NCBI GenBank assembly: GCA_948567375.1
Contig: OX419755.1
Location: forward strand, 76,034,931-76,098,930
DNA: 64,000 nucleotides
Direction: 5' to 3'
DNA from: Lunularia cruciata
Taxonomy: Eukaryota > Streptophyta > Marchantiopsida > Lunulariales > Lunulariaceae
The position numbers and the translations under genes are program-made. The notes below the pieces were generated by a model. That model saw nothing but the letters and a program-made list of their open reading frames with translations, ran no database searches and was not told where the DNA came from. Position 1 is the stretch's first letter. Each line of letters starts with the position of its first letter. This document shows, piece by piece, positions 5,946 to 49,366 of this stretch.

Positions 5946-6261
5946 CCGGTTGCTAAATAACATCTCCCTCACTTCACACTCAATTTTTAGGGGTAAATTG
6001 ATAATACCCATGAGTTCTAGCTCTAGTAGCATTGGTGGATCTAGTGGAGGTGCACTAGTTGGGAATGATGCTACTATGAGTGAGGATCCAACTACAAGAG
6101 ATGGTGCATTACTAGGGTTTAACCCCATGGTAGAGTTCTTCTAGTGCTTGAAGAAAAACTCCCAAGGAGTATGGATTGACAAGCTAAGAAGCTTGCATGA
6201 GTTCTAATGGAAGGCTAGAGAAAGCCCATATGAAGCATACACTTGAATGAGATGGCTGATC
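5946..6261 (+). pseudogene. Family B copy 1, start of gag
   Basis: This is the first coding part of element B1, before element A1 interrupts it. It aligns with 20817-21125 in copy B2, sharing the Ser/Gly-rich start (IGGSSGGALVG) and LGFNPMVEFF, followed by GVWIDKLRSL. Frame breaks are present. The gag continues at 13800 on the far side of A1. The left limit is set by the end of similarity to family C. Confidence 0.6.
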
Positions 6262-13799: not shown

Positions 13800-14810
13800 G
13801 ATCAGTTTCACTCAATGAGTTACTAAGGCCCAAACAGCCTAGTTTTGGTTTGGGATCTTAGACAAGGACTTGCAACATAAAGTGCATGATGCTTTATTGT
13901 TATAGGCTACTTCATCTTCTTTGGTTGTGATCTTTAGTTTGGCTGAGTGCATTGAGCTCAACATGGTGGAGGAGAGAGTGGTAACATTTAGATTTATTAG
14001 GGAGACCTCATTCATAGCTATTACTTCTTCTAGAGTGCAACAAAGTGCACCATGCCATGTTGGCTTTCAAGGACAGAGTGGATAGCCTAGATCCTATGGA
14101 GCAAGTGGAAGGCCTAGTGTAGCTAGACCCTTACCTTCAATTTTAGGTCAATAATAGCTAGTGAGTGGTGTTGTTGCTTATTGGACTTGTGGTGGACCTC
14201 ACCACAATAGAGAGTGCACTCAGGGTAATGGATATGATACCTCTAGTGTATCTTAACAAGCATAGATTTGGTCACACTAGTGACCAATGCTTTGATCTTC
14301 ACCCGGAGTGGTAGGGTTGCTATGGCAAGTGGTAGAGGAGCTTTAGGTCATGGAAGACAAGATGGGGGAGGATCCACACTTGGTAGGGATGTAGTACTTA
14401 CCTTTGCTTTTGATTAAGCCATGGCTACTTGGATTGAGCAGTTGGGGCAAAGATTGGCTAGCACGACCATAGCTTAAAGGAGATCAGATTTTGGTGTTGA
14501 GTCTTCGACCTCTTATGCTAGTGATAGAGACATCTTGGACTTCATGTGTGGAGCAACATAGGTAGATGTATCCTCTATAGTGATTAGGAGTGTAGTACAT
14601 GCTCTAGAGCCTAGAAGAGCATCAATGGAGTTGGACCCACAAAGAGGAGAGGCTTGTAGACAAGTTAGACTCTCCTAGTCTTTCACACTCTTTGAAGTAA
14701 CTACAAAAAAACATCCATAGCTCCTAGACATCCTAGTGCATGTAGAGTAGGTAGTGAGGGACTGCATGATAGACTACATGTTTTTCAACCACCTATTACT
14801 ACACAGATTG
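13800..14810 (+). pseudogene. Family B copy 1, rest of gag
   Basis: This continues the gag interrupted by A1 and is collinear with 21122-22050 in B2. A zinc-knuckle relic near 14180-14215 reads YWTCGGPHHNREC, with the first cysteine mutated. B2 has kept that cysteine but lost the second. The frame is broken in many places. Confidence 0.65.
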
Positions 14811-15559
14811 AGTCTAGCACGATGTTGGAAGTGGCTCAATTGATTATGCCCTTCCCTTTGTTCTCAACCAATAACATGTTTATTTTCAGAGTTGACCCAA
14901 TTGTAGTGTTCTGGTCAGTTGCCACACTTTGTGAGAGAAGGGATGATGTAGTTCATATTTCTAAAGTAGAGGTGGTTGATAGTGGAGCTCACTTGGTTAA
15001 GGAGCGCGGGGATCCTCTCAACAACCAAAGGTTTATGGCAAGCAATAGTAGCAGTTAGGTTGGAGGAGTTACAAGCTAGACCTTCCTTTGAGCAAGCTTG
15101 GTTCACACTTGGAGTTGTCCTATTGGATAACCAAAGGAGGATTTTCCATTTGTGAGACCTTCAAGGAAGGTCTATACACCACATAGGGTTTTTACTCTCT
15201 TATGTTGGGAGGTTGCAATTGTCGATCTAGAGCTAGGGAAGATCAATGTAGTGAGGTGTCCATTTTAGATCTAAACATCTCTAAGAGGTAGTTCTACACA
15301 ATACATCATATATAGAGAGCTCATTGTCTTGATTTAGCTTGGTCATCTAATTGATAGCTCTATGGTGAGAGCTCAAGCCATTGTAACAATAGTAGAGTCA
15401 TATGATGTGCTAGTTGGTGGAGCAGTGTTATACCCTATGGGTTTTATTATTGACTATTGTGAGGAGACAACCTCCTATAGACCAAGTTGATAGTCAGGTG
15501 AAGGATGGGTATGTCACCTACTAATAAGCTTTAGTAGTGGTAGTCTTTGGTCACTATAA
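14811..15559 (+). pseudogene. Family B copy 1, protease region
   Basis: This is collinear with 22080-22860 in B2, where the retropepsin motif LLDSGAQPL is readable. In B1 the motif itself is damaged. The downstream conserved text (vrahaiv, esydvlvggavlypmgf) is recognisable near 15360-15440. Confidence 0.55.
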
Positions 15560-16830
15560 TCAGTGACCATGGTATTAGTTTCAGATTTCACTGGTTCCAT
15601 TACTTGGCCTAGTGACTTGTTGGAGTGGAATGCTCATGCAAAGGATACTCCAATACCAAAGGAGATCACTTGCATTTGGAGTATGCGTAGGATTGTTTCA
15701 TCCAGCTTGGATGTTCCTTTGTGGAATTTTGAGGAGGCATTGTAGCAACATGTAGATCAATTGGTGCAATAGGCTTGCAGAGGAGCCTTTGCATCACCAA
15801 GAGACCAGTATTAGGATGAGCCACTAGAGTCTATTACCTTCTCACCTTTGGATACCACACTCATTGCTTGGCAATACCAATAGAGGGATTATGTCTATTG
15901 GAGTTGTTTGGTAGGATTAGCTCTAGCTAGATGCGGTATTATAGGTAGGTACATGAGTATAAAGGTACTTGTATGTAGAGAGAGATGAGATTACTAAGCG
16001 AGTCACTCTACATTATCTGGCACACTTGGCCAATTGGTATCTTGAGTTATTACCAATGTTAGCAATCAAGGGTTACCAGAAGAACCTACCAACAAATATT
16101 TCCCTATTGGGGGCGTAGGATTTAGAGAGACATGGTCCCATTTGATTGGTGATTTTTGGATGGCAAAGTTAGAGACATAAATGTATTAGCTAAGGTTGAG
16201 GTCTCCAAGATCCACATTCTTGTGTATTTTGGGAGATGTTACATATACTACAACATCTCCAAGTTCATCTATTTGTTTCTCTAACCTACATTTTGGAGGA
16301 CGTCTCTTTGATGGATGATTCTTGTACCCATGGGTGATGGCAAGTACACATCACATCCATTCTTGGATAGGACCTGCCGTATTATTAGATGCAGCCAAAG
16401 TGGGATCATGGGCTAATCATCTTTGTCTTTGGTGGACAAACCTCTTACCTAGAGAGGTTCTACAATGTGCTTATGATGAGATTTAGCACCTAGACCACCT
16501 TACTATAGATGGCATTTTGGATGTTGGGTGCAAATATCAGATGGTGGTTGTGTCTGATAGGTCACTTATGGTAGTGGTGAACCTTGTTGGATAGCTTAGA
16601 GCCACTTTACCCATAATTATGAGTTTCCCAAACTCCCATGATTTTTGAGAAGAAGGTCTTGGACTTGTTTGAGACTCATAGTTATAATAGTTGGTGGAGC
16701 CCAATGTAGATGAGAAGGAGGAGGCAATGGGTGTTTGTACCGGTATTACCATTGTTATAGTAGTGTGAGAGGCATCCAAATGTCAAGTGTTAGGTCTTGG
16801 ATTGTGAGCCTTGGCTTGGTAGAGAAACAT
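15560..16830 (+). pseudogene. Family B copy 1, C5-cytosine DNA methyltransferase domain
   Basis: Conserved C5-methyltransferase motifs occur in order between protease and RT. Motif I (SAM binding) reads LCLLELFGRIS at about 15889-15921. The motif II/III area reads RYLYVERDE at about 15963. The motif IV area reads GPI.LVIFGW at 16134, but the catalytic Pro-Cys is lost. Motif VI reads YILEDV at 16287-16304. A target-recognition-like region follows (PAVLLDAAKVGSWANHL, about 16370-16430), then a C-terminal EEAMGVCTGIT and QVLG at about 16716-16800. The enzyme would transfer a methyl group from SAM to cytosine in DNA. Multiple stops make this copy inactive. An N-terminal extension (15563-15745, with DLLEWNAHAKDTPIPKE) precedes motif I and is shared with B2. 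A profile search is the deciding test. Confidence 0.7.
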
Positions 16831-17339
16831 AAGATTTGCTTAATAAGCATCACCACTCACACACTTGTGAGCTCTATGCTTATCAAGATGATTCAAGCAC
16901 ATGTTGGGGATGGTGGATCAAGTGGGTAGGGTATTCTTGGGACATAGCCAATGGCTACTAGTGAGAGTGGTCTGCTTGGATTACACCCTTGGTCTACTTG
17001 GGATGGAACTAGAGGAGGTATGGGTGTTGGAGCTAGAGTAAAGGGAGTTTTCCACATTGAGATTGGGAACTCTAGTGGTCAAGGGTATGATATTACTACT
17101 CCCAAGGGTAGAGTATATCAACCAGTCAATATGTCTTCCATTCCTACATCAATTATAGAGGATACTTGGTAGCCTAATATTAGACCCAAGCTTACATGAG
17201 GAGAAAGATAGAGAATTTGGAGGTGAGGAGCTACATGGGTTGCTTTGCCTTTACTATGAAGGATTTAGGTGCTCTAAAAGAACTTGGTATTTGGATTGAG
17301 CTTGCTAATGATACAACAATTTTTTGACGTCCCTATAGA
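16831..17339 (+). other. Family B linker between methyltransferase and RT
   Basis: Part is open (16951-17172, with GLHPWSTWDGTR and VKGVFHIEIGNS). It is collinear with 24120-24500 in B2. I do not recognise a domain. The segment probably belongs to the same polyprotein, because RT sequence resumes at 17340. Confidence 0.4.
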
Positions 17340-17986
17340 TATAATGACATAAAGAGAGTATTAATTCAAAGTTGGATTATGAACCTTTTTGAGGTTGGTT
17401 TGGTAGAGATTTCACATGGAGAATATGCTTCAGCTACAATGATGCTAGCCAAGATTGATATGCATGGCAACTACACAAATATGCAAATGTGTGGAAATCA
17501 TTATCCTATCAACCAACAAACTCGGGTGATTGGTATGCCTGCCTACACCAAAGGAGATTCTTGATGCAATTGGGCATGCAAAGATCTTTGAGTAGGATAT
17601 ATCATCAATTGTTCATCAAGGAAGAGGATAAGTCCAAAATAGCATTTTGAGCCATGAATCATCATTGTAAGGATGTGGTCTATTAGTGGAGGTTCTTACC
17701 ATTTGGGTTAGAGGATGCTCCTATCGAGTTCCAAAGGATCATGGACAAGATCTTAAGAGGATTGGATTTTGTTCATTGCTATATTGATGACATTTTGTCT
17801 TATAGCATTATGATGGAGGAGTATCAAAGACATTTCTTGGAGGTGTTTGAGAGATTAAGATCTCATGGACTCAAATTAGATCTTGGGAAGTCTAGATTCT
17901 TCCACAAGCAGGTTAAATATTTGGGTCACACTATCTATCTTGAAGGACTTTGTCATGACATTTGTAGCACCAAGGCTAGTTTACTA
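17340..17986 (+). pseudogene. Family B copy 1, reverse transcriptase
   Basis: A Ty3-type RT is recognisable. The downstream part (17741-17960) is open and includes MDKILRGLDFVHCYIDDI with the catalytic YIDD, followed by RSHGLKLDLGKSRFFHK and VKYLGHTIY. Upstream fingers and palm text is frameshifted. After LGHTIYLEGL the sequence jumps at a tgacatttgtagca junction straight into the B LTR, so RNase H, integrase and the PHD finger have been deleted. The last bases before 17987 are already LTR. Confidence 0.8.
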
Positions 17987-18648
17987 TGTTATACCCATTT
18001 ATGCATGTTTGTGTTATTGTGATATTTAGTTTGGTATTATAAGTACTTGAGAGATATTATTTATGTAAAGATAAATGATGGTTTTACATTAGCCATGATT
18101 AGCTAGTTAGTCATAATTAAGATAAAGGAGACCTTACTAAAGAAGAAGTGAAAGCACCACTATTTTAGATTCTAACATATTTACTTGGTATTATTCCTAG
18201 TTGTTTGGCTTTGAGGAAAGAGTTGAGAACTCTTGAACCCGTAAGCCTTTTTGTTTTAGATTCTTCTATGATCCAAGGAAAGCCTATATGAAGGAATCCT
18301 TGACTTAATGGTTGGGTCAAGATATGACCACATGCTTAAGAGAATATTACCATGAGTATGGATATTCCTTTAGAGTTTTGACTTTATTTGACTTTTAGCC
18401 TTATAAATTGAGTTACTATAATAATTAGTAACTTTGATATGTAACTATTTCACAAATATATAAACTAGGGGTGAGAAGGTACTCATTATTCTTTCATTTG
18501 CACCTATCTCTCTCTGATTGAGTTTTATAATGAGTGTTAGCCTTGGAGGAGTATGATGAAGTGGGTGCTCTTTGACTTCTTAGTCCATGGTACACTACCA
18601 TAATAACCATTAGAGGTTCATCTTGAGTGAGAGACAAACCAGCTCACA
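17987..18648 (+). repeat. Isolated family A LTR inside a B LTR
   Basis: It begins tgttataccc and ends ccagctcaca, collinear with the A LTRs elsewhere. No A coding sequence adjoins it, so it is a solo LTR. It interrupts the B LTR between aaggctagttt and acgttggag. The B LTR at 45628 shows the uninterrupted text. The flanks share act plus one changed base as a likely 4-bp duplication. Confidence 0.85.
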
Positions 18649-19040
18649 ACTCAAACGTTGGAGTGGTAGTGCTGGTAGTCATAAGTATTTTGGTAGCTAC
18701 ACATGGACTACTTGTTGGCGGTCTAATTTCATGTTAGGGCTATTGATCACATGGTGAAACCCATTGTCACTTGCATCATTTGCATAGTTGAATATGCCAT
18801 CAATGCCATTAGAATTGGAGACCTAAGTCAAATAGAGGGGTATATCTTTAAAGTGAAGCTCTAGAGAGCTCACTTCTTTGATGTTGAGCCTTCAAGTTCT
18901 TGGCTATGGTAGATAGAGGTCGGCAAGCATCACCTATAGTCTCTTAGCTAGAGTGGGTGTGGCTTGATCATAATCAGTGCCCAATTGTTGAATGAAGGAT
19001 TGAGTATCTATTTGATTTGAGTGTGATTCAACTTGAAGAA
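18649..19040 (+). repeat. Family B LTR, 3' part (B1/B2 boundary)
   Basis: This is collinear with 45765-46184 and 48880-49285. Together with 17955-17986 it forms a B LTR lacking its first 130 or so bases. It is followed not by an LTR start but by what appears to be the internal leader of B2. B1 and B2 therefore share a single LTR. Confidence 0.65.
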
Positions 19041-20785
19041 GAATTGATAACATCAAAGAAATCACAATCAAGGGGAAATTGGATGTAGGAATTAAGGGTG
19101 TTGGTGGTATCTCCAAGCTTAGCTGATCATTGGTACTTGGATTGTGGTTCAGATTTCCTTGAGAGAGATCCTGTGCAAAATCTCTATGTGATTTGATGCA
19201 AATTTTGTAGTGGGCATACAACGCTGACCAAATTTTCTGAGAATGAAGTCAATTTCAGTGGGTGTTTGATTTGAGCCCAAGAGCTGAAATCAGGTTGATC
19301 TGGTATGAATTTGGCTTGAAGTTCAAAATTGAAGGTGGAGTTTGAAACCCATCTATGTGAATTAGGGATTTGGAGATCCACATCCTTCCAATTTGGCTTA
19401 AGTGGAGATTTAGCAGACGATTTGGCAATCAACAAACTATAAAAGAGTTACACTAGAATTACATCAGATTTGGTGGAGGTTGCCCAGATTTAGAAGTCAC
19501 CCAAACTGCCCTAGATTTGGCTCAAGTTGGATGAAGGTTAGCTATATTTGGAGAGGGTTTGAATTGGCAAGAAGAAATGCCTTGTTTGGTTTGATTTGGA
19601 GAGGGTTTAAATTGGCAAGAAGAAAGGTCTCATTTGGGTGTTTAGAGGCTTTGAGGCACAGTGTTGTGGTCTCAATATTTAGAGGCTTTAAGGCATAGGG
19701 TTGTGGGCTATAAGAGGCTACAAAGGCCTTAGAGGGCTAGCAAGCCAACTTGTTGGCGTGAGACTAACTAGTTTGAATGAGTTTTGTTGTCATTATTTGG
19801 CAAAATCTGCCCACCCTTCTAGATTGTGTGCAATAGGGTTTGAACCCTAAATCTTTGGTTTCTAGACTGGTGCTCTAGCCAATTGGTCCGATTTCACTTG
19901 TTGTCTTGGTGATTGTTCCATTGATAATTATGCACATGTAAATTTTGTTAGGAGAGGCAATTTGATCCTATTCTTGGTGATGTTGGTAGCTTAGGAAGTA
20001 GATAGACACTTTTATCATATCAAATGCCAAATGGTAGTAGAGTCAGTCCAATGTTGATTTATGAGATAGAGAGTTTTGTTTAGACTTCTTGTGATTGGAC
20101 CCCCTCCATTCTCTACTTCCTAGTTGTGCACCATGTTTATATGAGTTGCCTTGAATTTAGAGTGTTAGTGCTTTGGTGTGCTCTTGGTTGTGAGACTGGA
20201 GTGATGACCAATAAGACTACTTGTGTTTCTCTCCAGTGAGGTAGGAAGTGATGATCTACAGACCATAAGAAAGCATGTTGTGATGATAGGTTACAAGTTG
20301 CACTTTCTCCTATTGTAATTTTTGCAATTAGAGCTACATTAGTGGGAAGTGTTCAATTGGTGGTGGTCCTTGGTGATGTACTAATTCTTTGGGAATTCTA
20401 GAGGATATATCACAATAACACACAATGGGTTTACCCAAAGTGGCACTTGATATCAACCTATATCTCAGGTCCCCATGAGGAAGGAGATTGACTTTGAGTT
20501 GGAGTTTGATATATGAGCTGATTCAATTAAGAGTACACTTGGTGTGTCCATACCATCATTGTGAGAAATGGACATGATTTATGGGGCATCCAAAGGCCCC
20601 AAGTGCTGCTTTGGTACAAAAGGTACCATTGAGTTGGACAACTTCATCCATGAGTTTGATAATTGGTATGATTTGCAAAAATGTGAAACCCAACTTTGTT
20701 CACACCCTTCATGGCATAGAAAGGGTTGTTTTAGCACTTAGAGTGTCTGCCAATAGATAATTATCATAAGTTCAAGAGAGCTCAC
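19041..20785 (+). other. Family B copy 2 leader, no gene recognised
   Basis: This is a long stretch between the B LTR and the gag start of B2. I see no protein-like frame. It contains a direct repeat of about 30 bp and a degenerate tRNA-like patch at 19830-19890; both are listed separately. Confidence 0.4.
19549..19628. repeat. Direct repeat of about 30 bp, 48-bp period
   Basis: The text tggagagggtttRaattg followed by gcaagaagaaa occurs at about 19549 and 19597. The copies differ by a base or two. Confidence 0.8.
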
Positions 20786-22059
20786 TTGGAGGAAATCAAG
20801 CTATGGAGACAATATTGGTTGTTGAACTATATCTCCATCATTTCAAGCTTGGTTGCTAGAGGTAGATTGGTACTACCCACAAGTTCTAACTCTAGTAGCA
20901 TTCGTGGATCTAGTGGAGGTGCACTAGTTGGAGATGGTGCAACTACAAGTGGAGGTATCACTATAGGAGGTTGCATAGTACTAGGGTTTAACCCTATGGT
21001 GGAATTCTTGCAATGCTTGAGGTAGAATTACCAAGGAGTGTGGATTGACAAGCTAAGGAGCTTGCAAGAGTTCCAAAGGTAGGTTGAAAGAGCCTATGCA
21101 AGGTATACACTTGCATGAGATGGTTGATCAGTTCACTTAGGGAGTTACTAAGGTTGAGGTAGTCTAGTTTTGGCATGAGATCCTAGATAGAGAGTTGCAA
21201 TATAAAGTGTGTGATGGTACTTTATTATAGGCTGCTTAACCTACTTTGGTAGTGGTCTTTAGTTTGGCTAAATGCATTGAGCTCAACATGGTAGAAGAGA
21301 GAGTGGTGACATCTGGATTTGGTAGGGAGACCTCATCCATAGTTGTTACTTCTTCTAATGTGCAGTAGATTGCACCTTGCCATGTTGGCTTTCAAGGATA
21401 GAGTAGACAGCCTAGATCCTACGGAGCGAGTAGAGAGCCTAGTGCAGCTAGACCCTTACCTTCATTTTTAGGTCAATAGTAGCGAGTGCAACGTGGTGTT
21501 GCTTGTTGGACTTATGGTGGACTAAAAAACAAAAGGAATGCACTCAATATAGAGACAATGTGACCATTGCCAAAATTTAATCATAGTAGTGACAAATGCT
21601 TTGACCTTCACTTAGAGTTACAAAGTGATAGGGCTATTATGGCAGGTGGTAGAGGTGGTGGTAGAGGATCCACATTAGGTAGGAGTGAAATACCTGCCCT
21701 TAATTTTGATTAAGCCATGGTTATTTGGAATGAGCATTTAGAGCAAAGATTGGCTAACATAACCATGTTAGCTAATCTAAGATTTGGGTGTTAAGGCTTC
21801 CATCTATTATGTTGGTGATAGAGACATCTTGGACTTTATGTGTGGAGCAGCTTAGGTAGATGTAATTTTTGTAATGACTAGGAGTGCAATAAGTGCTCAA
21901 AAGCCTAGAGGAGCATGAGTTGGATCCACAAAGAGGAGAGGCTATAGAAATGTCAAACTTCTCTAGTTTTTTATACTCTTTGAGGCACTACAAACAACAT
22001 CCATGGTTTTTAAATAGCCTAGTGCAAGTGTGGTAAGTGGTGATGGAATGCATGATAGA
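20786..22059 (+). pseudogene. Family B copy 2, gag
   Basis: Open from 20786 to 21025, with a Ser-rich stretch (SSNSSSIRGSSGGALVG) and VLGFNPMVEFL. It then decays but stays collinear with B1. A knuckle relic near 21500 reads ACWTYGG, with the second cysteine lost. The site at 21121-21140 is the unoccupied version of the A1 target. Gag would form the particle core. Confidence 0.65.
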
Positions 22060-22860
22060 CTAGATGCTAGTCAACCCTACCACTATCCAAATTGAGTATA
22101 GCACAATGTTGGGGGAGGCCCAATTGATTATATGCTTCTCTTTGTTCTCAACTAGTGACATGTTTACATTGGGAGTTGACCCAACTCTAGAGTTCCGGTT
22201 GGTTGCCACACTTTGTGAGAGTAGAGATGATGTGGTTCCTATTTCTAGAGCAGAGGCGGTTGATATTGGAGCTGACTTGGTTGAGGAGCATGGGAGCTGG
22301 TCAGCAACAAGTGGTTTATGGCAAGCAACGCCAACTAGATTGTGAGAGTTACTAGCTAGAGCTACTTTTAAGTGAGCATGATTCATACTTAGAGTTATAT
22401 TATTGGATAACTAGAGGGGGATTTTTCATTTGATGAAACGTTTAGGGGTCTATACACCATGGATGGTCTTATTAGACTCTGGTGCACAACCCCTTATGTT
22501 AGAGAAGGTTGTAGTTATCAATCTGGAGCTATGGAAGTCCAATGTAGAGAGGTATCCATTTCAAATCAAAATATCACTAGAAGGTGGTTCTATATAGTGC
22601 ATCATATGTGAGGAGCTCATTATTCGGATTCAATTTGGTCATCCTATTGATAGTTTTGTGGTGAGAGCTCATGCCATTGCAATAGTAATGGAATCATATG
22701 ATATACTAGTTTGTAGAGCAGTACTATACTCCATGGGTTTCAATATTGACTATTGGAAAGAGATAGCCTCTTATAGACTATGTTGTCTATCAAGTGAGGG
22801 ATGGGTATGTTGCTTACAAGTATGCTTTATTAGTGGTATTCTTGGCTCACTATAGTCAGG
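22060..22860 (+). pseudogene. Family B copy 2, protease region
   Basis: A retropepsin motif is readable near 22440-22500: YTPWMVLLDSGAQPLM (DSGA active site), after a frame break. Downstream text includes INLELWKSNVERYPFQIK, and RAHAIAIVMESYDIL within an open stretch at 22658-22855. The protease would process the polyprotein in an active element. Confidence 0.65.
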
Positions 22861-24130
22861 GACCATGACATAGTTTTAGCTTTTAGTGGTTTTGTTACTT
22901 GGCCCGGTGACTTATTGGAGTGGAATGCCCATGCAAAAGATACTTTAGTACCAAAGGAGGTCACTCAGATTTGGTGTACAAGTAGGATTGTTCCATCCAT
23001 CTTGGATGTTCCATTGTGGAGTTCTAAGGAGGCATTATAATAACATGCAAATCAATTGGTGCAAAAGGCTTGGAGTGGAGTCTTTGTACCACCAAGAAAC
23101 TAATGTGAGGATGAGCCTCTAGGGTCTCTCACATTGTTACCTTTAAATACCACACTCATTGCTTGGCAATATCAAATAGAGGGAGTATGTCTATTGGAGT
23201 TGTTTGGTAGGATTAGCACTAGACTAGTTATGGTATTACAAGCATGTACATGAGTATAGAGGTACTTGTATGTAGAGAGAGATGAGACTATTAGGCAAGT
23301 CTCTCTACATCATGTGGCACACTTGGCATATCAGTATCCTAAGTTATTACTAATGTTAATAGTCAAGGGTTACCAAAAGACCCTACTAGTACACATTTAC
23401 TTGTTGGGAGTATAAGATTTGGATAGAAAATGGTCCCATTCATTTGGTGATTTCTAGATGGGCATGTCAAGGACATAAACTTGTGTAGGCCAAAGTCAAG
23501 GTTTCCAAGATCCCCATTCTGGTGTGTTTTGAGAGATGTTACATATATTACAACAACTCCATGTTCATCAATCTATTTCTTTAGCCTACATTTTGGAGAA
23601 TGTCCCTTTGATGGGTGATTCTTGTACCTAGGTGGTGGTGAGTACACATCAGGTCTATTCTTGGATAGGACCTACTATGTTGTTAGATGCAGCTAGAGTG
23701 GGATCACGGGCTCATCATCTTTGTCTTTGGTAGACATACCTCTTAGCTAGAGAGGTTCTACAATGTTCTTATGATGGGATTCACCAACTAGACCACCTTA
23801 TTGTTGATAATATTCTGGATTTTAGGCACCAGTGTCATATGGTGGTAATGGCTGATAGTACACTTATAGCATTGGTGAACCTTGTTGGATAGCCCAAAGC
23901 CACTTTACCCACACTTATGAGTTTCCCAAGCTCCCATGCTTTTTGAGAGGGAGGTCCTAGACTTGTTTGGGACTCACAATTATAGCAATTGGTGGAGCTA
24001 ATGAGAGAGAGCAGGTGATAGGTTTTTGTACCACATTTATAGTAGTGTTAGAGGCATCTAAGCATCAAGTGTTAGATCAAGTTATGTACCTGAATTGTTT
24101 AATAGTTTAGGTCCACAATGAGCCTTAGCT
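22861..24130 (+). pseudogene. Family B copy 2, C5-cytosine DNA methyltransferase domain
   Basis: This is the better-preserved methyltransferase copy. Motif I reads VCLLELFGRISTRLVMVLQ (about 23188-23244). The acidic SAM-contact region reads RYLYVERDE (about 23260). Motif IV reads GPIHLVISRWACQGH (23432-23476), with the catalytic cysteine codon at 23465-23467 and alanine where proline is usual. Motif VI reads YILENV (23587-23604), the canonical ENV. A recognition-region-like block reads MLLDAARVGSRAHHLCLW (about 23678-23731). The C-terminal motifs read EREQVIGF (24003-24026) and HQVLDQVM (24063-24086), matching the E-G-F and the LGxAM end of the family. Frames shift several times, so it is not functional. 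The order protease-methyltransferase-RT agrees with B1. Confidence 0.75.
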
Positions 24131-24548
24131 TGGCAAAGCAACATAGATACGCTTGATAAGCATCACCACTCGAACACTTGCAAGCTTTGTGCCTATCAAG
24201 CAAATTTAAGCACATGTTGGGAGCTATGAACTAAGTGGGTAGGGTATCCTTGGGACACAGCTAGTGAGAGTGGTCTACTTGGGCTCTATCCCAGTGAGCG
24301 TGGTAAACTTGGATTACTCCTTTGGTCTACTTGGGATGTAGTACATATGGAGCTTGTAATCACATCAAAGGGAGTTTTCCACACTAAGGTTGGGAACTGT
24401 AGTGGTTGGGGACATGAGACTTTTGCTTCCAAGGGCCTAGTGTAGCAACTAGTTAGTACATCTTCCACTTCTACATCAGTATAGAGGATACTTGTGTAAT
24501 ACCAATAGCCAGACATATTATCTAGAGGTGAAAATTGGCTTGGTAACA
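24131..24548 (+). other. Family B copy 2, tail of linker
   Basis: This is collinear with 16840-17170 in B1 (cgcttgataagcatcaccact..., then ctacttgggatg). B2 ends here before reaching the RT. The junction with the family D LTR is placed at about 24548 and is imprecise. Confidence 0.45.
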
Positions 24549-27233: not shown

Positions 27234-27643
27234 CGGAACAATGCGTATATGCATTGACTATCAAGGACTTAATCAACAAATGGCAAAGAATAAATATCCA
27301 TAACCTTGCATAGATAACTTATTTGATCAACTTAATGGAGCAAGGCACTTGACCAAGCTTGACTTGCAGAGCGGTTACAACCAAATCAGGATTGCAGAGG
27401 AAGACATACACAAAATAGCCTTTCAAACAAGGTATAATCACTTTGAGTACTTAGTGATGCCATTTGGCCTCACCAACGCTCCAACCACTTTCATGAATGA
27501 CATATTTAAGTTTAATGAATGACATATTTTGCCCATACTTGGATAAATCTATTCTCATTTTTCTTGATGACATCTTAGTCTACAATACAACAATGATAGA
27601 GCACAAGCAACATCTACGGGAAGTCCTCCAGATTCTATGACAA
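27234..27643 (+). pseudogene. Ty3-type RT scrap of another family (E)
   Basis: The translation gives [41 protein letters not shown] and ILIFLDDILVY (catalytic FLDD). These motifs differ from those of families A and B. A short duplication of tttaatgaatgacatat interrupts it near 27500-27530. It joins B3 RNase H at about 27643, possibly by template switching or patchwise deletion. Confidence 0.75.
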
Positions 27644-28017
27644 AATTAGTTCATATGCGGGAGAGTGCTTAGCAGAAATTTGGGTGGTAGCACATTTTTT
27701 ATGTTACTTATTTGATAACCTCTTTACTCTCATCACTAATCATCAGCCATTGAAGTGGTTGATGGATTCAGACAAGCTTTCAAGGAAGCTTGCACAATGG
27801 GCTCTGATTTTACAAGAGTATGATTTCATGATTATTCATAGACTTGGAGTGGTGAATCGTGATGCAGATGGGTTGAGTAGAAACCCATGTCCTAGCAGGA
27901 TCAGACCGGAGTATGTTGGCATGGGGAGACAGATGAGGAGATGGTACTAGGTTGGCATGCATCTGCCTTTCTTTGTATATTTTTTGAGTCTTTGATGGTA
28001 TCTCTCTCAATGCATAT
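27644..28017 (+). pseudogene. Family B copy 3, RNase H part
   Basis: This encodes FTLITNHQPLKWLMDSDKL, ALILQEYDFMIIHRLG and DADGLSRNPCPS, typical of the end of Ty3 RNase H. It is collinear with 43580-43925 in B4. At 28017 family C copy 2 breaks in; the element resumes at 40203. Confidence 0.85.
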
Positions 28018-33483: not shown

Positions 33484-35107
33484 GGATAGAGGATTTCTTG
33501 ATTTCAAAGCAACAATGGAACTACAATGTGTTGGATGATGTTGGTAGTCACAAGGCTAATATCATAGTGGACTAATTGATTGCTTTGAACCCTACCTTGA
33601 GAACGGAGCTTAGAGGTGGTTTGATTTCTACAAGGAGCAAGAGGAAGAAGAAGGCAAAAAAGCTCCAACATCAATGGGGGTGGTAGATGCCAAGCCAGCA
33701 CCATGGGAGGCTTGTGAATATGCCTCCAAGATTGATGTGAGAGTGAATGGTCACAAAATCAAGGATGCATTGGTTGATGGAGGATCAGCAGTGAATGCCA
33801 TATCAGAAAGGTTGATGAAGAATTTTGGTATGACACCCTCAAGACCTTCAACATTTGTGGTGAGCCTGGCAAACAAGCAACAAGTTCGACCAGTAGGGGT
33901 GATGGATAAAGTGGTAGTTTCAGTTATGGGAGTTCAAAATCTCATGAATTTCCAAGTCTTGAAGGATTCAAGCTATGACTTACTTTTTGGGATGCCATGG
34001 TTGAGAGCAGCACGCACAACTGATTGGTGGCAAAAAGGGTACTTGAGGATTGGGCCATCAAACCATAGAGTCACAGCTCTTATAACTAACACCACCAACA
34101 CTTCACATTTAGATACACCATCTTCTGATTATTGGGAATTAGATTCTGAAGAAGGAGCTTCAAGTGTGGACATAAGCATGGAGGAGGAGACTTACACGAA
34201 GGAGGATGAATCTGAATCTGATTCAGATGTGTATCCTTTGTGTGCTATGGATTTTGCACCTAAGTCAAAGGTTTTGGAGGACCCAAATAAATCACCATTG
34301 ACACTTGAGGAGATAGAGAGAAGGTTAGCTACCCTCAAGTATTGGCCAAATGTTACCAAGGAGGAGAAGGTGAGATTTGAGGAGATTTTCCACAAGTTCA
34401 TCCATGTGTTTGCTTTTAGTTACAAGGATTTGAAGGAAGTTACCTTAGAGGAGCACAAGATAGAGGTGGATTCACATGCAAGACCAATCCACCAAAAGCA
34501 ACATTGTATTAGCCCACCAATATTTTTGGTTGTGAAGGAGGAGATTGATAAGCTCAAGGAGGCTGGATTTATCTTTGAGGTGAAGAATTCAAAATGGGTG
34601 TCTCCAATTGTCATTGTGAAGAAAAAGAATGGTAAGCTTTGGGTATGTGTGGATTACAAGGAGGTCAATGTTGTTACCAAGAAGGACTACTACACATTGC
34701 CATTTATTGATGAGATCTTGGAAGAGGTTGCAAGTCATGAGAGGTTCAGTTTTGGAGATGGTTATAGTGGATATAACCAAATCAAGATTGCACCAGAGCA
34801 TCAACAACTCACCACACTCACCACACCTTGGGGAACTTATGCTTTCAAGGTCATGCCTTTTAGGCTTTGCAATGCTCCAGCCACATTCCAACGGTCCATG
34901 AATAAGGTATTTGAACCTTTCATTGGGAAATCAGTAAGAGACTTTATTGATGACTTTTGTGTCTATGGGAGCAAGGAGGAGCACTTTGAGCACCTAATCA
35001 AGGTCTTGCAATACTTGGATGAGGAAAATGCATCACTCAACCCAAAGAAATGCATTTTTGGATGTGAAGAAGGTCTACTTTTGGGGCACATCATCTCCAA
35101 AGATTGA
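33484..35107 (+). pseudogene. A2 protease and reverse transcriptase
   Basis: A continuous frame of 477 codons runs from 33674. The protease has LVDGGSAVN as putative active site, then YDLLFGMPWLRAA. An acidic linker follows. RT motifs are KWVSPIVIVKKKNGKLWV, DGYSGYNQIKIAPEHQ, LCNAPATFQRSMNKVF and the catalytic FIDDFCVYG. The frame ends after LLLGHIISKD at a stop that splits RT from RNase H. The counterpart region in A1 (9611-10588 and 8954-9610) is more broken. Upstream 33484-33673 belongs to the same polyprotein but has stops. Confidence 0.85.
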
Positions 35108-39670: not shown

Positions 39671-40202
39671 TGTGCTTCCTTACTCTTTATTTGTGAAATA
39701 TCAAAGCCAAGACTCTAACCCACTCTTTTTGTGTGCTTGCAATTTCCATTCCTTTGGGTGAACTTTGATTAAGGATAGGATAGTGTCTAGACATTGCAAT
39801 GTTTCCTCTTTGAAATTTCAATTTTAGAAGTCCTTTATTGATTGGTCATTCTTTAATCACTTCTCCGTGTTACTCACCAATTCTATGAGTTTATTTCCTG
39901 TCACTTTCAAGAACATCTTGGTCCCAAGGTAGTCAATTTCTTCTCTTACCCTTTCTTGATTGGAGGACCCCAAGGATGGTTTTTATTGGTTCTTTGGATC
40001 AAGGGACGCTCCCCAATACAACATCCATTGTCCTCGTCTTCATACTTCTTTCTATCCGACCCGAGCCCTTCTAACTTCGACCCAAGGTTGACTTTGGATT
40101 GACTATAACACAAGATCCTTTGCTTTCTTCCCTGTTTAGCCCCCCTTTGGCTTTTCCAATGCACTTCTTCTCTAAAACTCATAAAAAAATGTGGGTACCA
40201 CA
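39671..40202 (-). other. Family C, 5' noncoding end (copy 2)
   Basis: This is noncoding sequence between the element's outer end and the protein start. It is absent from C1 beyond about 5945. The end reads tgtggtacccac on the element strand. Confidence 0.5.
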
Positions 40203-41869
40203 CATACATGAGGAGTTATTGAGGTCATAAATTCAAAGAGTGGAGATAGTGGTATAGTTCAATGAGACATTCATGATGGTGTCTTAGTGATGGACTATCT
40301 TTGCACTATTGTTGTGGGTGACATAGTTGGTACCAAAGAGACCGTGTCCTTCAGCAAGCTAGGCAGTTCAGATTGGAGGGACTCCTTTTGCATGTATGGG
40401 AGGATGGTAGAGTGAGAGTAGTACTACTTTTAATCTCAAAGACCACAATTGGTCCGTCATGCTTATGAGAAGCTAGGACATTTTGGAGTAAAGCATACAT
40501 ATAGCTTACTCCAAAGTCATTATTGGTGGCACGGTATGCAGACTTATTTATAGCAATTTTTTGTGAGATGTGTGGTTTGTGACCAAGTTAAAGCATCATT
40601 TAATGCTTATATGCCATAGTTACACCCATTACCTATCTTGGGATTGGATTACTGCTGGAGTTTCAACTTTATTGGACCTTTACCATTGATTATGAGACAT
40701 CATCGGTACATTTTGGTGATAGTGGAGCACTTCTCCAAGTAGATTGAGTTGGTGGTACTTCCTGAAAAGTCTAGTGAAAGGACGGCTTACTCATTCTTGG
40801 ATCGGGTCCTCAATCATTTTGGTGCACCAACTAAGGTTTTGATTGATCAGGGTACAAAGTTCTTGGGAGAATTTCAGGTCTTGTATGACAAGGCTTTGAT
40901 TGAACATTGTACTACCTCTTGAGATCACCCTAAGGCATATGGCTTAGTAGAGAGAGTGGTTCAAATAATAAAGAGAGGATTGCAAAAGTATGATTTGTAG
41001 AGTGGCCACTTGGGAGATTGGGATCTCCAGTTACCTTGGTTGGCCATGGGCTATCGGTTCAGCTGGCAAGCCTCCTTAGCATCCTTCTCTCTTTACTTTC
41101 TACTCTATGAACAAAATCCAGATTTAACTGCAGCCATTCATCAAGATATTATTGTAGTGTTGGACTTGGATGATCCAAATGTATGGATGAGCGCATGTTC
41201 TCAATGAGCACAGATCTTTTGGAGAATGATGCCAATGGCCGTTGAGAAATTGGCAATTGCTCAGCATAGGGATAACTTACGCTATACTACCATTTAAGGA
41301 GGAGGTTATAGACCTTTGATCCGTGGATTTCATCTAGGTGATTATGTATATCTACAATAGACAACACCAATGATACTTGATGTTTCTATAGGCTGCACTA
41401 TCTTGAGAGTGCATGAGGTTTTGCCATATGAGGTCCTTGTGTTAGAAAGACATGATGGTGTTGATTGGAAGGATCATGTGTGCAATTGTGTGCCTTACTA
41501 ATTTCCAAACATTGATGGTATTATGGACCCAAGGTCGGCACTTGTACGTGTAGGCTTACGTTGTAAGTTACACGGCTCTTCTGGTAGAATTCTTACTATG
41601 TTAGTGTGTGACAGTTGAAAAGATGGCATATGGTATGTATGACTACTCCCCTCATGGTGGTTCTTCAAGGATAGTAGTTATGTCCTAGATGTACTTGACT
41701 TAAGCTAGTTCATCCTTTATATTGTATATATTGCAAGCATGCAACTAACAATGAGGCTCGATAGCACCCGTCCTCCTGATCTTTTGCCCACCATAAGGTA
41801 TACCATATACTTGGAGTAGATGGCTATATGGAGTTAGAGGGACCTAACCGCCAACTAGAGAGGCAACTA
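40203..41869 (+). pseudogene. Family B copy 3, integrase with C-terminal PHD finger
   Basis: The integrase zinc domain (HFGVKHTYSLLQSHYWW, then CVVCDQV) is near 40475-40600. The core has VLIDQGTKF (about 40833) and GLVERVVQIIKRG (about 40940). After a tail (RDGV-like W.DHVCNC), a PHD finger lies at 41562-41698. Its Cys/His pattern is partly mutated (CKLH for CxxC), but VCD, WHM and the final CPRCT are readable, followed directly by TGA. The sequence from 41699 to the LTR is noncoding. In relatives, integrase inserts the cDNA; a PHD finger reads histone tails. Confidence 0.8.
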
Positions 41870-42424
41870 TGGCACTTTAGAATCCATGTATGACTTATGT
41901 ATGAGTTCTGCTTCTATAGTTTGTGATGTTGACAACAATGTATGTTGTGTAGCAATGTATATATGCATGACAACTATCACGCCATTTGTAGCTTTGCATC
42001 TAAATTGCTCAGACACTGGAGTAGCAGTGATAGTAGTTTGAGATATTTTAGCATTTACTTATAGATTACTTTCTGACAGTCAGATTTGTGTTTGGAGAAC
42101 TGACTACATGGTGGGGCTCATTGTCACTTGCACCATTTTCACCATTGTATGTGCCATTAACGGGACCGTTGGGGTGAGACCTAGGTCAAAATCAAGAGTA
42201 TACCCTAGAACTATGGCTCTAGAGAGCTCACTTCTCTATTGTTGAGCCTTTGAGTTCTTGGCTAGAGTGGACAAAAAGCTAGCAAGGGTCACTTGGAGTC
42301 TCTTAGCTAGAGTGGGTGTGGCTTGATTGTAATTAGTGCACAACTGTTGGTAAATTATTGAGTGACAGATCAATATTGATCTAATTGAGTGTAATTCAAG
42401 TTGTGTAAACAAACTGATTAATTG
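41870..42424 (+). repeat. Family B LTR (B3)
   Basis: It starts tggcactttagaatcc. Its end, aaactgattaattg, abuts another LTR start (tggcac at 42425) with no internal sequence between. It is collinear with LTRs at 45628 and 48716. Confidence 0.75.
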
Positions 42425-42507
42425 TGGCACTTTAGAGTCCATGTATGACTTATATATGAGTTATACTTCTATGGTGTATGATTTTGACAATGATATATGT
42501 TGTATAG

Positions 42508-42578
<71 letters not shown>
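42425..42578 (+). repeat. Truncated B LTR start with (TA)n
   Basis: It repeats the first part of the B LTR (tggcactttagagtcc...) and stops at atatatgca, where RT sequence begins. It includes a TA microsatellite at about 42510-42573. Confidence 0.75.
42510..42573. repeat. (TA)n microsatellite, about 64 bp
   Basis: Uninterrupted alternating T and A. The other B LTRs have only a short tatatatg at this place. Confidence 0.95.
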
Positions 42579-43440
42579 AAAAGAGAGTATTGATTTAGAT
42601 TTAGAGTAGAGATCTTTTTAAATCTGGTTTGGTAGAGATTTCACATAGAGAGTATGCTTCAACAACAATGATGCCAACAAAGATGGATATGCATAGCAAC
42701 TACACTGATAGGTGGATGTGTGGAGATTACCATCCTATCAACCAATAGACTAAGGTTGATTGGTATGCTATGCCTACAATGAAGGAGATCTTTGATGCAA
42801 TTAGGCATGCAAAGGTCTTCAATACTTTGGATCTTCAAGCAAGATATCATTAGTTGCCAATTGGAAGGAGTATAAGTCTAAGATAATATTTTGGGCTATT
42901 GATCCTCACAGTAAGGATGTATGATATTAGTGGAAGTTCTTACTATTTGCGTTAAAGAACACCCTTTCCAAGTTCTTGAGGGTCATGGATAGGATCCTAA
43001 TAGGATTAGATTTTACTTGGTGCTATATTGATGATATTTTGGTCTATAGCATAACTATGGAGGTATTTGTTGGAAGTGTTTGAGAGATTGAGATCTCATG
43101 GACTCAAATACATCTTGGGAAGTCTAGATTCTTCCATGAGTAGGTTGAGTATTTAGGTTACACTATCTACCCTAGAGATCTTGGTGTTTAACAGACCAAG
43201 GTGGAGGGTATTGCGCATATTCCTTAGCTTATGGATGTTAGTAGAGTTCAAGCATTCCTTGGGTTGGTGAATTTCTATTGCTGATATATTAGAGGATTTA
43301 GTGACATTGCCAAGGCCTTGACAAAGTTGACCAAGCTTACATAGGAGTGGTGTTGGGGAGATGAGCATGAGAGAGCTTTTATAGAGCTCATAGAGAGGTT
43401 GACTCTGCCTCAATTCTTTGGAGATTGATCAAAGGATGAC
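42579..43440 (+). pseudogene. Family B copy 4, reverse transcriptase
   Basis: This Ty3-type RT is collinear with 17350 onward in B1. The catalytic box reads CYIDDILVYS near 43020-43050, followed by a region like RSHGLKYILGKSRFFH and VEYLGYTIY, then the connection domain (VQAFLGLVNFYC). Frameshifts and stops are frequent. Gag, protease and methyltransferase are missing from this copy. Confidence 0.8.
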
Positions 43441-43915
43441 TATTCAAAGTTCATATTGATTGGAGTATGTTGGAGCTTGGAGTAGTCTCACCTAACATGA
43501 TGATGAGGAGAAGGAGTTTGTGGTGGCCTATGCTAGTTGCTCCAACAATTCAATGGAGCCAAAGTATAGTTCATATGAAGGAGAGTGCTTGGTAGCAATA
43601 TGGGCAATAGCATATTTTTTATGTTGCCTATTTGGTAACCCCTTCACTCTCATCATTTATCATCAACCATTGAAGTGGTTGATGGAGTCAAACAAGTTTT
43701 CAAGGAAGCTTGCACGAGAAGCTCTAATTTTACAAGAGTATGATTTCATATTTATTCACAAACCTAGAGTGGTGACCTATGATGAAGATGGGTTGAGTAA
43801 AAACCCATGTCCTAACCAATAGGATCAAACCGGAGCATGTTAGTATGGTGAGATAGATGAGGAGATGGTGCTAGGTTGACATGCATCTACCTTTTTATGT
43901 ATATTTTTTGAGGCT
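43441..43915 (+). pseudogene. Family B copy 4, RNase H
   Basis: 43520-43822 is open: VAYASCSNNSMEPKYSSYE, then FTLIIYHQPLKWLMESNK, ALILQEYDFIFIHKP and DGLSKNPCPNQ. It is the best-preserved RNase H end among the B copies. Confidence 0.85.
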
Positions 43916-45627
43916 TTGGTGATATCTCTCTCAATGGATACACAAGGAGTTATTGAGGTCATGGATCCAAAAGGTAGAGATATTAGTATGGTTCAACAAA
44001 ACATTCATGATGATGTCTTAGTGATGGATTATCTTCAAACTAGTGTGTTGGGTAGCATAATTGGTGCCAAGGAGAGAGATCATGTTCTTTACCAAGCTAA
44101 GTGGTTTAGATGAGAGAGAAAACACCTTCTTCATGTATGGGAGGATGGTAGAGTGTGAGTAGTACCACTTCCAACTCAAAGACCACAATTGGTTCATCAT
44201 GCGCATGAGGAGCTAGGACATTTTGGAGTAAAGCATACGTAGCTTACTCCAAAGTTATCATTGGAGGCACAATATGCAAACCAACATACAATAGTTTGTT
44301 GCCAAATGTGTGGTTTGTGATTGAGTTAGAGCATCATTTTAATGCTCCTATGCCACACTTACACCCATTACCTATCATGGGATTGGGTTACCATTGGAGT
44401 TTGGACTTTGTTGGACCTTTACCCCTGACTATGCAATATAATCAATATATTTTGGTTATGGTGGAGCACTTCTCCAAGAAGATTGAGTTGGTGGTACTTC
44501 TTGACAAGTCTAGTGAAGTCTAGTAGCTTACTCATTTTTGGATTGGGTTCTTAGTCATTTTGGTGCACCAATTGAGGTTTTGATTGATCAAGGTATAAAG
44601 TTCTTGGAGGAGTTTCAGGTCTTGTGTGACAAGGCCTTGATTGATCATCATACTACCTCCCAAGATCACCTTGAGACAAATGGCTTAGCAAAGAGAGTGG
44701 TTCAAATGGTGAAGAGAGGATTGCATAAGTATGGTCTATAGAGAGGTCACTTGGTAGATTGAGATCTCCAATTTTCTTGGTTGGCCATGGGCTATCAACT
44801 CAACCGGCAAGCCTTCTTAGCATACTCTCTCCTTACTTTCTGCTCTCTTCTCCAAATTTACTTACAACCAATTATCAAGATGTTATTGTAGTTTTGGGCT
44901 TGGATGATCTAGATTTATAGGTGAGCATATATTCTCAATGGGGAGAGATCTTTTGGAAAGTGATGCCAATGGCCTTTGAGATTTTGGTGATTTCTCAACA
45001 TAAGGATACCTTACTCTATGCTACTATTTGAGGAGGATGTTATAGATCCTCAATTTGTCAATTTCATCCAAGTGACTATATATCTACAACAAAGAGCACC
45101 AACAACACTTGATGTTACTACAAGCCACACTATCTTCAGAGTGCATGAGATTTTTCGTTTGGAGTACTTGTTTGGAAGGATGTGATGGTGTTGTTTGGAA
45201 GGATGTGATGGTGTTGTTTGGAAGGATCATGTGCACAATTGTGCACCATGCCACCTCTCAAACATTGATGGCACTATGGACCCAAGCTCGGCAATTGTAC
45301 GTGTAGGCTTGTGGTGTATGTTATGCGGTTCTTCTAGTGGAGCTACTACTATGTTAGTGTATGATAGTTGTTTGAAATGATAGCATATGACATGTTTGAC
45401 TCCTTCCCTCACAATGGCTCCTCAAGGATAGTGGTTTATGTCCTAGATGTACTTGACCTATAGCTAGTTCACCCTTTATATAGTGTATATTGTAGATATG
45501 TGCCTAATGATGGGGCTTGATAGCACTCGGCCTCTTAATTTTTGCCCACCATAAGGTATACCATATTCTTGGAGTAGATGGCTATCTAGAGTTAGAGAGA
45601 TCTAACTGCTAGCTAGGGAGGCAATTG
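43916..45627 (+). pseudogene. Family B copy 4, integrase with C-terminal PHD finger
   Basis: 43916-44113 covers the linker to integrase. The zinc domain at 44190-44340 is damaged. The core at 44296-44741 has LDFVGPLPLTMQYNQYILV (first Asp), VLIDQGIKFLEEF (second Asp) and GLAKRVVQMVKRGLH (Glu replaced by Lys). The PHD finger at 45315-45456 reads CMLCGSSSGATTMLVYDSC, then a damaged WHM..C (HMTCLTP), and finally CPRCT plus stop after a one-base shift. The order C2-C2-HC-C2 and spacing match PHD fingers. The noncoding rest leads to the LTR. Confidence 0.82.
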
Positions 45628-46184
45628 TCTCACTTTAGAGTTCATGTATGACTTATGTGTGAGTTGTGCTTCTATAATGTATAATGTTGACAGTGATGTA
45701 TGTTGTGTAGCAATGTATATACGCATGATAACTATCATGACATTTGTAGCATCAAGGCTAGTTTGCTTGGACATTGGAATGGTAGTGTTGGTAATCATAG
45801 GTATTTTGGTAGTTACTCATGGACTACTTGTTAGTGGTCCAACTTCATGTTAGGGCTACTCATCACGTGGTAGGACCCAATATCAATTGCACTGTTCACA
45901 TTGTTGAATGTGCCATTAGTAATGCTATTAGAGCTAGAGACCTAGGTTGAGTATAGAGGTATACCTTCAAAGTGCAGCTCTAGAGAGCTCACTTCTTTGA
46001 TGTTGAGCCTTCAAGTTCCTGATTATGGTAGATAGAGGTTGGCAAGCATCGCTTAGAAGCTCTTAGCTCAAGTGAGTGTGGCTTGATTGTAATCAATGCC
46101 CAATTGTTGGCAGATTGTTGAGTGAAGGATTGAGTACTTATCTGATTTGAATGTGATTTGAGTTGAAGAAGAAATGATTTATTA
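45628..46184 (+). repeat. Family B LTR (B4)
   Basis: Collinear with B3 and B5 LTRs. It contains the uninterrupted version (aaggctagtttgcttggac, near 45753) of the site hit by the solo LTR at 17987. Its end abuts a second LTR start at 46185. Confidence 0.75.
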
Positions 46185-46284
46185 TGGCACTTTAGAGTTC
46201 ATTTATGACTTATATGTGATTTGTGCTTTTGTAGTGTATGATATTGACAATGATATATGTTGTATAGTGATATATATATGCATG
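46185..46284 (+). repeat. Truncated B LTR start (B5)
   Basis: First 100 or so bases of the B LTR, broken at tatatatgca, then joined to the middle of RT/connection sequence (cttggtgttcaacaaacc). Confidence 0.75.
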
Positions 46285-49285: not shown

Positions 49286-49366
49286 TGGCACTTTAGATTT
49301 CATGTATGACTTATATATGTGTTGTGCTTCTATAGTGTATAATGTTGACAATGATGTATATATGCA
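49286..49366 (+). repeat. Truncated B LTR start at end of array
   Basis: First part of the B LTR, broken at tatatgca and followed by an A run and unrelated sequence. It closes the B array. Confidence 0.7.

Follow-up and report, generated by a model that had tools for sequence, protein, structure and literature searches.

Retrotransposons are among the main targets of DNA methylation, so that an element bearing a methyltransferase of its own reverses the usual arms race. The published cases that we found come from a charophyte and from dinoflagellates. The closest is KnitGypsy-Dnmt3 of Klebsormidium nitens, described in the excerpted text of de Mendoza 2018 (PMC5890265) as a Gypsy element with a Dnmt3 in its Pol, DIRS-type repeats and purifying selection, whose acquisition of Dnmt3 is there called independent of the dinoflagellate one. 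The same excerpts describe DNA methyltransferases (DNMTs) borne by retrotransposons of dinoflagellates, SymbioDIRS-Dnmt3 and SymbioLINE-Dnmt, and report that the SymbioDIRS enzymes methylate CG in yeast; a passage in a later paper (PMC12344493), citing the 2018 one, places some DNMT3s of streptophytes and dinoflagellates inside long terminal repeat (LTR) elements of the Copia type and inside DIRS elements. Here we analyse a stretch of 64,000 nucleotides (the window) at positions 76034931-76098930 of contig OX419755.1 (C1) in the Lunularia cruciata genome (566 Mb, 74 contigs), in which lie two decayed copies, B1 and B2, of a Ty3-type retrotransposon with a DNMT between its protease and its reverse transcriptase (RT).

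Compared with KnitGypsy-Dnmt3 as the excerpts present it (the likeness rests on that description rather than on a Klebsormidium sequence), the Lunularia family is likewise a Gypsy LTR element with an intronless Dnmt3-type DNMT in its polyprotein, with conserved catalytic residues and split repeats whose layout equals the paper's DIRS scheme with Gypsy domains. It differs in that the DNMT lies in the first open reading frame (ORF), after gag and protease and before a UAG stop, whereas that of K. nitens lies in the Pol ORF; in having a PHD finger, a word absent from the PMC5890265 text; in its thousands of copies, K. nitens being said to hold fewer than Symbiodinium; and in its bryophyte-type and chlorophyte hosts. 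SymbioDIRS has a tyrosine recombinase and SymbioLINE is a LINE, whereas the Lunularia element has a DDE integrase and a Ty3-type RT. A search of the open-access literature, covering few subscription journals and preprints, returned no report of a DNMT-bearing retroelement from bryophytes or chlorophytes, nor of a PHD finger in one. The original prediction had held that such a domain would be notable in this lineage and gene order; the kind was already known, and the Lunularia family extends it with a new variant and wider hosts.

Because the window holds no intact copy of the family, open copies from elsewhere in the genome were used as probes. One of these, L006, an open ORF of 623 amino acids with protease-region, DNMT and C-terminal parts that was located through the Pfam profile PF00145, matched the window at 15288-17115 (B1) and 22637-24442 (B2) in tblastn searches (E = 5e-177 and 2e-172). 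Stops and frameshifts interrupt both copies. Motif I reads LELFGRIS in both, and motif VI reads YILEDV in B1 and YILENV in B2. Two such copies, each placed between a retropepsin and a Ty3 RT, were what the original prediction had proposed, and we recovered them with the protease region upstream in both and an RT with YIDD downstream in B1. Its claim that B2 retains the catalytic Cys of motif IV within WACQGH holds; in B1 the Cys is gone and the place reads GWQS*RH. The predicted profile match was also obtained, two open genome copies scoring 30.5 and 31.6 bits against the curated PF00145 cut-off of 22, mostly by alignment of profile positions ~48-120.

In alignments of the domain, motifs I, IV (Cys), VI (ENV), VIII and X follow the expected order. 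The catalytic Cys is kept in all 147 rows that have a residue there in an alignment of 149, and like Glu-Asn in motif VI and Arg in motif VIII it is nearly invariant. DNMT3 is the closest solved C5 methyltransferase both by sequence and by model structure (DNMT3A scored 80 bits and HaeIII 37 in the profile search of the PDB), and no DNMT1 or CMT entry appeared among the 57 solved-structure sequences listed. Identity to DNMT3A and DNMT3B is ~19-26% in structural alignments and, unlike these enzymes, no fused ADD or PWWP was found, the PHD finger being on another part of the polyprotein. We conclude that the domain is almost certainly a DNMT3-class retro-methyltransferase, and in intact copies it is probably active on DNA.

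The anatomy of the family was read from 20 copies of 10 kb each, a non-random sample of the PF00145 matches in which long frames had stayed open. The element measures ~9.9 kb and consists of ORF1 (gag, protease and DNMT) followed in frame by ORF2 (RT, RNase H, integrase and PHD finger). Within ORF1, the gag with its two CCHC-type knuckles, one of them short-spaced, and the protease region with LDSGAQ were recognised by eye; the Pfam scan of ORF1 named the DNMT alone. ORF2 comprises RT, RNase H, H2C2, an integrase core (rve, E = 1e-12) and, at the C-terminus, a PHD finger (E = 2e-10). Among PDB entries the RT-RNase H segment matches Ty3 best (E = 2e-93), and the order protease, RT, RNase H, integrase agrees with that of Ty3/gypsy LTR retrotransposons. 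DIRS elements have a tyrosine recombinase where this family has the rve core, which sets the family apart from them. At the boundary between the two ORFs all 20 copies have TAG, then CAG, then CCA, CTA or TCA. This fits UAG CAR YYA, which we take to be a leaky stop context, and readthrough of the UAG would thus join ORF1 and ORF2. The same context separates in-frame ORFs in tobacco mosaic virus and in SIRE1; in Lunularia, where it is known from sequence, the stop parts gag, protease and DNMT from RT and integrase. Chromoviruses are likewise Ty3 elements whose integrase ends in a domain that reads chromatin, but the Lunularia element has a PHD finger in place of the chromodomain, and a DNMT besides. 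The closest solved relatives of this finger include those of CHD4, KDM5B, PHF21A and ATXR5, and from the binding classes of such fingers we presume that it reads unmethylated H3K4.

PF00145 gave 123 matches in the genome, a few of which are host genes; by eye, the two best, L001 and L002, resemble a host DNMT3 and a DRM-like gene, respectively. When the genome was scanned with the DNMT domain, the best 122 of 13,449 first-look candidates were scored; all 122 of these top places, again a non-random set, matched the query near end to end with at least 95% identity, and 75 have no internal stop by table count. Words of the family were counted across the genome with up to three mismatches and a control word alongside, yielding 4,710 sites for DNMT motif IV (reversed control 0), 5,680 for the RT motif (control 1) and 3,833 for the ORF junction (control 0). 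The 123 profile matches, the near full-length agreement of the scored places and the contrast of 4,710 motif IV sites with none exclude chance. We read the excess of RT over DNMT sites as a faster decay of the DNMT word, which holds a CHG site. Between 3,800 and 5,700 copies of ~9.9 kb would amount to 38-56 Mb, or ~7-10% of the genome, an upper bound that assumes full length; ORF1 (1,428 amino acids) is still open in some copies. As to related elements without the domain, which would have spoken against the original prediction, four RT sites on C1, taken from many because each lacked a listed exact DNMT-motif partner, all still had the DNMT ahead of RT, a small sample in which the stretch read at L107 showed no protease. 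Exact RT-motif sites are near-regularly spaced on C1 at ~12.6-13.1 Mb and 15.40-15.59 Mb, with steps of ~76-83 kb in one run and ~64-65 kb in another, like large tandem arrays with one element each.

Relatives were sought in three protein searches. The first (120 of 253 matches listed) named, among the matches listed, Marchantia polymorpha, M. paleacea, Riccia sorocarpa, Calypogeia fissa and Sphagnum species, the remaining listed matches being mostly unnamed metagenome proteins; the second (all 49 listed) named Marchantia polymorpha and Sphagnum fallax; the third (120 of 190 listed), whose query was a relative from the other branch, named among its listed matches Haematococcus lacustris and Monoraphidium neglectum, besides a locus tag read by us as Chromochloris zofingiensis. 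Two bacterial-named listed matches (P0024, P0195) are read as mis-binned contigs. No Klebsormidium name occurs among the listed matches (120 of 253, 49 of 49 and 120 of 190). The one match in a search of genome contigs, a 9.3-kb environmental contig filed as Synechococcales cyanobacterium (L067, CADCWO010000201.1), with ends that overlap by 127 bp like an assembly loop and an ORF junction of TAG CAA TCA, is a DNMT-bearing Ty3 element and hence a eukaryotic sequence binned as bacterial. Proteins longer than 900 amino acids numbered 160, with the ORF2 proteins of the Lunularia family and of L067 added; 83 of the 160 have the order RT-RNase H-DNMT-integrase-PHD and 22 are gag-protease-DNMT. Because this set was gathered through DNMT searches, it is uninformative on relatives lacking a DNMT. 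In bryophyte-type elements the DNMT precedes RT; in the type of the named chlorophytes it follows RNase H and is itself followed by integrase.

Trees of 41 elements plus outgroup (38 of 93 two-domain candidates, P0127 with its shorter RT, the Lunularia family and L067) separated these two positions, with support of 95 in the Shimodaira-Hasegawa-like approximate likelihood ratio test for the DNMT and a weak 74 for RT; they come from a quick search, and each outgroup is a single long branch. Path distances in the DNMT and RT trees were correlated (r = 0.80; r = 0.61 within the after-RNase H group, n = 36), none of 2,000 permutations reaching the observed value in either case. The grouping by DNMT position and the correlated distances favour one old association of DNMT and RT, which would have descended jointly over a long time, over repeated capture.

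Taking these results together, we lean towards the view that this is a Ty3-type LTR element with a DNMT3-class methyltransferase fixed in its polyprotein, the most likely role of which would be to methylate the element's own cDNA or new copies; we would put the chance of such action in cis at slightly under even. The DNMT would be produced at Gag level through its synthesis with ORF1, would be packed into the particle, and would methylate the double-stranded cDNA of the element or its fresh insertion in CG, perhaps also in CHG. New copies would hence be born methylated, then silent and tolerated through host maintenance methylation. The original prediction had likewise suggested self-methylation for quiet persistence, a role that is still inferential. 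The PHD finger linked to integrase would direct new insertions into chromatin that is unmethylated at H3K4, much as chromodomains guide those of chromoviruses. Against proteins of Marchantia, identity is 71-75% for the DNMT, 68% for RT, 82% for RNase H, 58% for protease and 62% for gag, so that conservation of the DNMT comes close to that of RT and exceeds that of gag and protease. Substitutions confined to single copies bear on methylation itself. C-to-T changes per 1,000 copy-sites amount to 19.2 in CG, 17.0 in CHG and 3.05 in CHH, and transitions at A/T to 0.87; this excess indicates that insertions of the family have been methylated in CG and CHG. Host enzymes alone could cause it. Four young copies have an observed/expected CpG ratio of 0.39-0.42, while both window copies stand at 0.10 and the whole window at 0.23. 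With thousands of copies in a plant genome and named relatives in Marchantia polymorpha (among them Mp_4g09160), one can ask in a model plant for which genetics and methylomes exist whether new copies owe their methylation to the element's own enzyme, and the paired PHD finger, the leaky stop and a palindrome internal to the repeats are further testable parts.

Several observations weigh against this view. Between the Lunularia family and L067 the DNMT is less conserved (53% amino acid identity, nonsynonymous divergence 0.44, synonymous divergence ~3 and saturated) than RT (63%) or integrase (71%). Within the young family, nonsynonymous against synonymous changes, compared between shared and singleton classes, gave no significant departure for the DNMT (ratio 0.65, P = 0.28), nor for RT (0.70, P = 0.41); over the 11 segments gag alone was significant (0.22, P = 0.0002), which leaves the deep comparisons as the evidence for selection on the DNMT. 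The CG and CHG footprint, sampled in the DNMT family alone, matches what host maintenance of the MET1/CMT type gives. The retro-DNMT of K. nitens showed no activity in yeast, a result its authors call inconclusive in the excerpted text of PMC5890265. In motif IV, 91 of the 149 rows have Glu before the Cys (EC, as in P0149, P0150, P0157 and P0167, mostly of chlorophyte type and with the Cys kept) and 48 have Pro (PC), which leaves activity across the clade uncertain. Finally, in a search with the retro profile the host DNMT3 leads the best phage methyltransferase by a narrow margin (69 and 59 bits).

The last two observations each bear on a rival explanation. If the domain no longer methylated and were retained to bind DNA or to give structure to the particle, the change from PC to EC in many relatives would find its place, methyl transfer being here a prediction from sequence; Cys, Glu-Asn and Arg are nonetheless conserved beyond what a binding role would need, and we hold this loss of activity to be very improbable. 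An origin of the domain from bacteria or phage rather than from a host DNMT3 gene would suit the bacterial look of motif IV (WPCQGH/WPCQDL) and the score that phage enzymes reach. Searches of viral contigs found one locus, then 37 loci, 27-50% identical over short stretches, which were taken as putative phage C5 methyltransferases. Host DNMT3 still scores higher with the retro profile and DNMT3A exceeds HaeIII in the PDB profile, and we consider such an origin unlikely. A midpoint-rooted tree of 29 rows, with one host DNMT3 and 15 phage enzymes, sets the retro and the phage enzymes each on one side of a branch with host DNMT3 between them, a placement that favours neither origin.

The remaining rivals concern the target. 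The enzyme might methylate the host genome in trans or compete with host silencing, for instance by placing CG methylation where the host uses CHG/CHH marks or by saturating its readers, and would thereby raise rather than lower expression of the element; synthesis at Gag level would presumably make it abundant, and copies in the genome number thousands. The footprint, however, is strong in CG and CHG alike, as in silenced plant elements, and we regard this explanation as rather unlikely. Action on element RNA or RNA:DNA hybrids, or shielding of the cDNA from deaminases, would agree with the position of the DNMT next to RT in the polyprotein, and methylation of RNA by SymbioLINE and protection of cDNA are raised as possibilities in the excerpts of de Mendoza 2018 (PMC5890265); the fold and the sequence are nevertheless nearer to DNMT3 than to DNMT2, and we judge it improbable.

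Self-methylation of new copies would be one side of the element's biology, and its repeats point to another. The layout is A-coding-B-A-B, with A (~449 bp) at the start and B (106 bp), A and B at the 3' end, unlike the plain LTR-coding-LTR arrangement of Ty3/gypsy elements. Eighteen of the 20 copies have the B-A-B end and 17 also the 5' A (in L010 a 74-bp piece). The outer ends are TGTC...GACA, and by eye a 4-bp target duplication flanks 14 of 18 copies; L013 and L021 have a mismatch, the 3' end of L020 enters another repeat A, and in L025 no 3' end could be recognised. Twelve of 18 copies have exactly GACAGCTGTC at the B|A junction and six depart from it by C/T or G/A changes only; this palindrome equals both outer termini joined, plus 2 bp. 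L067 has the same GACAGCTGTCACG exactly and a purine-rich tract ahead of B; there as in the family copies the tract adjoins B and not A. The 5' and 3' copies of A diverge by 0.3-3.6% in 15 copies and by 10% in L013, partly over cut repeats, and in L010 the 74 bp are uninformative. At the junction of the 3' A with the terminal B, L021 has an inserted CATCA that matches the bases after the 5' A (the leader start) and may reflect the way in which the ends arose and became linked. The sequence that follows A, CATCAGAGAAGTG, is similar to the initiator-tRNA site without matching it and is a candidate primer binding site.

The palindrome being the termini plus 2 bp, the purine tract at B and the extra bases of L021 suggest a model in which reverse transcription would yield BA-coding-BA, the ends would be joined into a circle (an A|B joint), and integrase would cut GACA-GC-TGTC at B|A within one repeat and insert A-coding-B-A-B with a 4-bp duplication. 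If this were true, the DIRS-like repeats of DNMT-Gypsy elements would stem from a DDE integrase whose substrate is a circle or a pair of joined ends. Split repeats could alternatively arise when reverse transcription switches templates. We therefore offer only tentatively, as somewhat less probable than its opposite, the broader proposal of an old green-plant Ty3 lineage that would combine two chromatin functions, writing by a DNMT3-class enzyme and reading by a PHD finger, with an unusual circle-then-cut integration.

The features of the family in the window are as follows.

5962-6261, plus strand: gag fragment presumed to belong to B1, covering Gag-segment residues 87-186 (tblastn, 58%); the piece at 13801 resumes at residue 186
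13801-15010, plus strand: remaining B1 gag and gag-protease linker (tblastn, main pieces 54-69%)
15069-15877, plus strand: B1 retropepsin-like protease region (tblastn, 63-65%, E = 4e-85)
15877-16836, plus strand: B1 DNMT in three frames, Cys lost (tblastn, E = 5e-96; two long pieces of 62-67% identity)
17116-17118, plus strand: B1 position of the ORF1/ORF2 stop, TAT here and TAG in the family (sequence read)
17119-17950, plus strand: B1 RT with YIDD, interrupted by the insertion of B2 (tblastn)
17947-17950 (left) and 46288-46291 (right), plus strand: ACTT, 4-bp target duplication flanking B2 (by eye)
17951-19048, plus strand: B2 5' repeat A (blastn against the 3' repeat, 94% over 33 bp and 81% over 408 columns), interrupted by ~670 bp of other sequence (17986-18654)
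19051-20320, plus strand: B2 5' untranslated region (blastn, 69% and 81%)
20577-22348, plus strand: B2 gag and linker (tblastn)
22349-23172, plus strand: B2 protease region (tblastn, 61-72%)
23176-24101, plus strand: B2 DNMT (tblastn, E = 4e-105; long piece 63%, short piece 55%)
23459-23476, plus strand: B2 motif IV WACQGH with the catalytic Cys (sequence read)
24443-24451, plus strand: B2 TAG CAA CTA, the UAG CAR YYA context retained despite decay (sequence read)
27642-28015, plus strand: RNase H and linker of B3, a third relative nested within B2 (tblastn, 75-94%)
40197-42518, plus strand: B3 linker, integrase, PHD finger and B-A-B end (tblastn)
42581-45437, plus strand: B2 RT from residue ~80 (part of RT is missing), RNase H, integrase, C-terminal region and PHD finger (tblastn)
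45454-46287, plus strand: B2 3' end B-A-B, with A at 45733-46180 and the terminal B at 46181-46287 (tblastn/blastn)
46310-48543, plus strand: B1 RNase H, integrase and PHD finger, continuing the RT of 17119-17950 (tblastn)
48546-49359, plus strand: B1 3' end with repeats B-A-B (family-segment search)

The two copies of the original prediction are thus real, but they are parts of one nest with halves that lie far apart. B1 extends over 5962-6261 (a fragment that we presume to be its own), 13801-17950 and 46310-49359, and B2 (17951-46287) sits in its RT. Because B2 was inserted there, its RT half is found at 42581-46287 and the 3' half of B1 at 46310-49359, where RNase H resumes seven residues beyond the break in RT (tblastn). 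The 3' ends of B1, B2 and B3 are all B-A-B and each has a decayed palindrome: GACAACTATC at 41969 in B3, found by scan, and GATAACTATC near 45728 in B2 and AACAACTATC near 48828 in B1, both read from the sequence.

The window also holds remains of other elements. An open frame of 497 amino acids at 33614-35104 (plus strand) encodes protease and RT with FIDD of a different Ty3 family, for which there were 5,323 first-look candidates and 39 other scored places 94-95% identical. At 52570-52935 (plus strand) we recognised by eye a fragment of a Ty1/copia-type RT.

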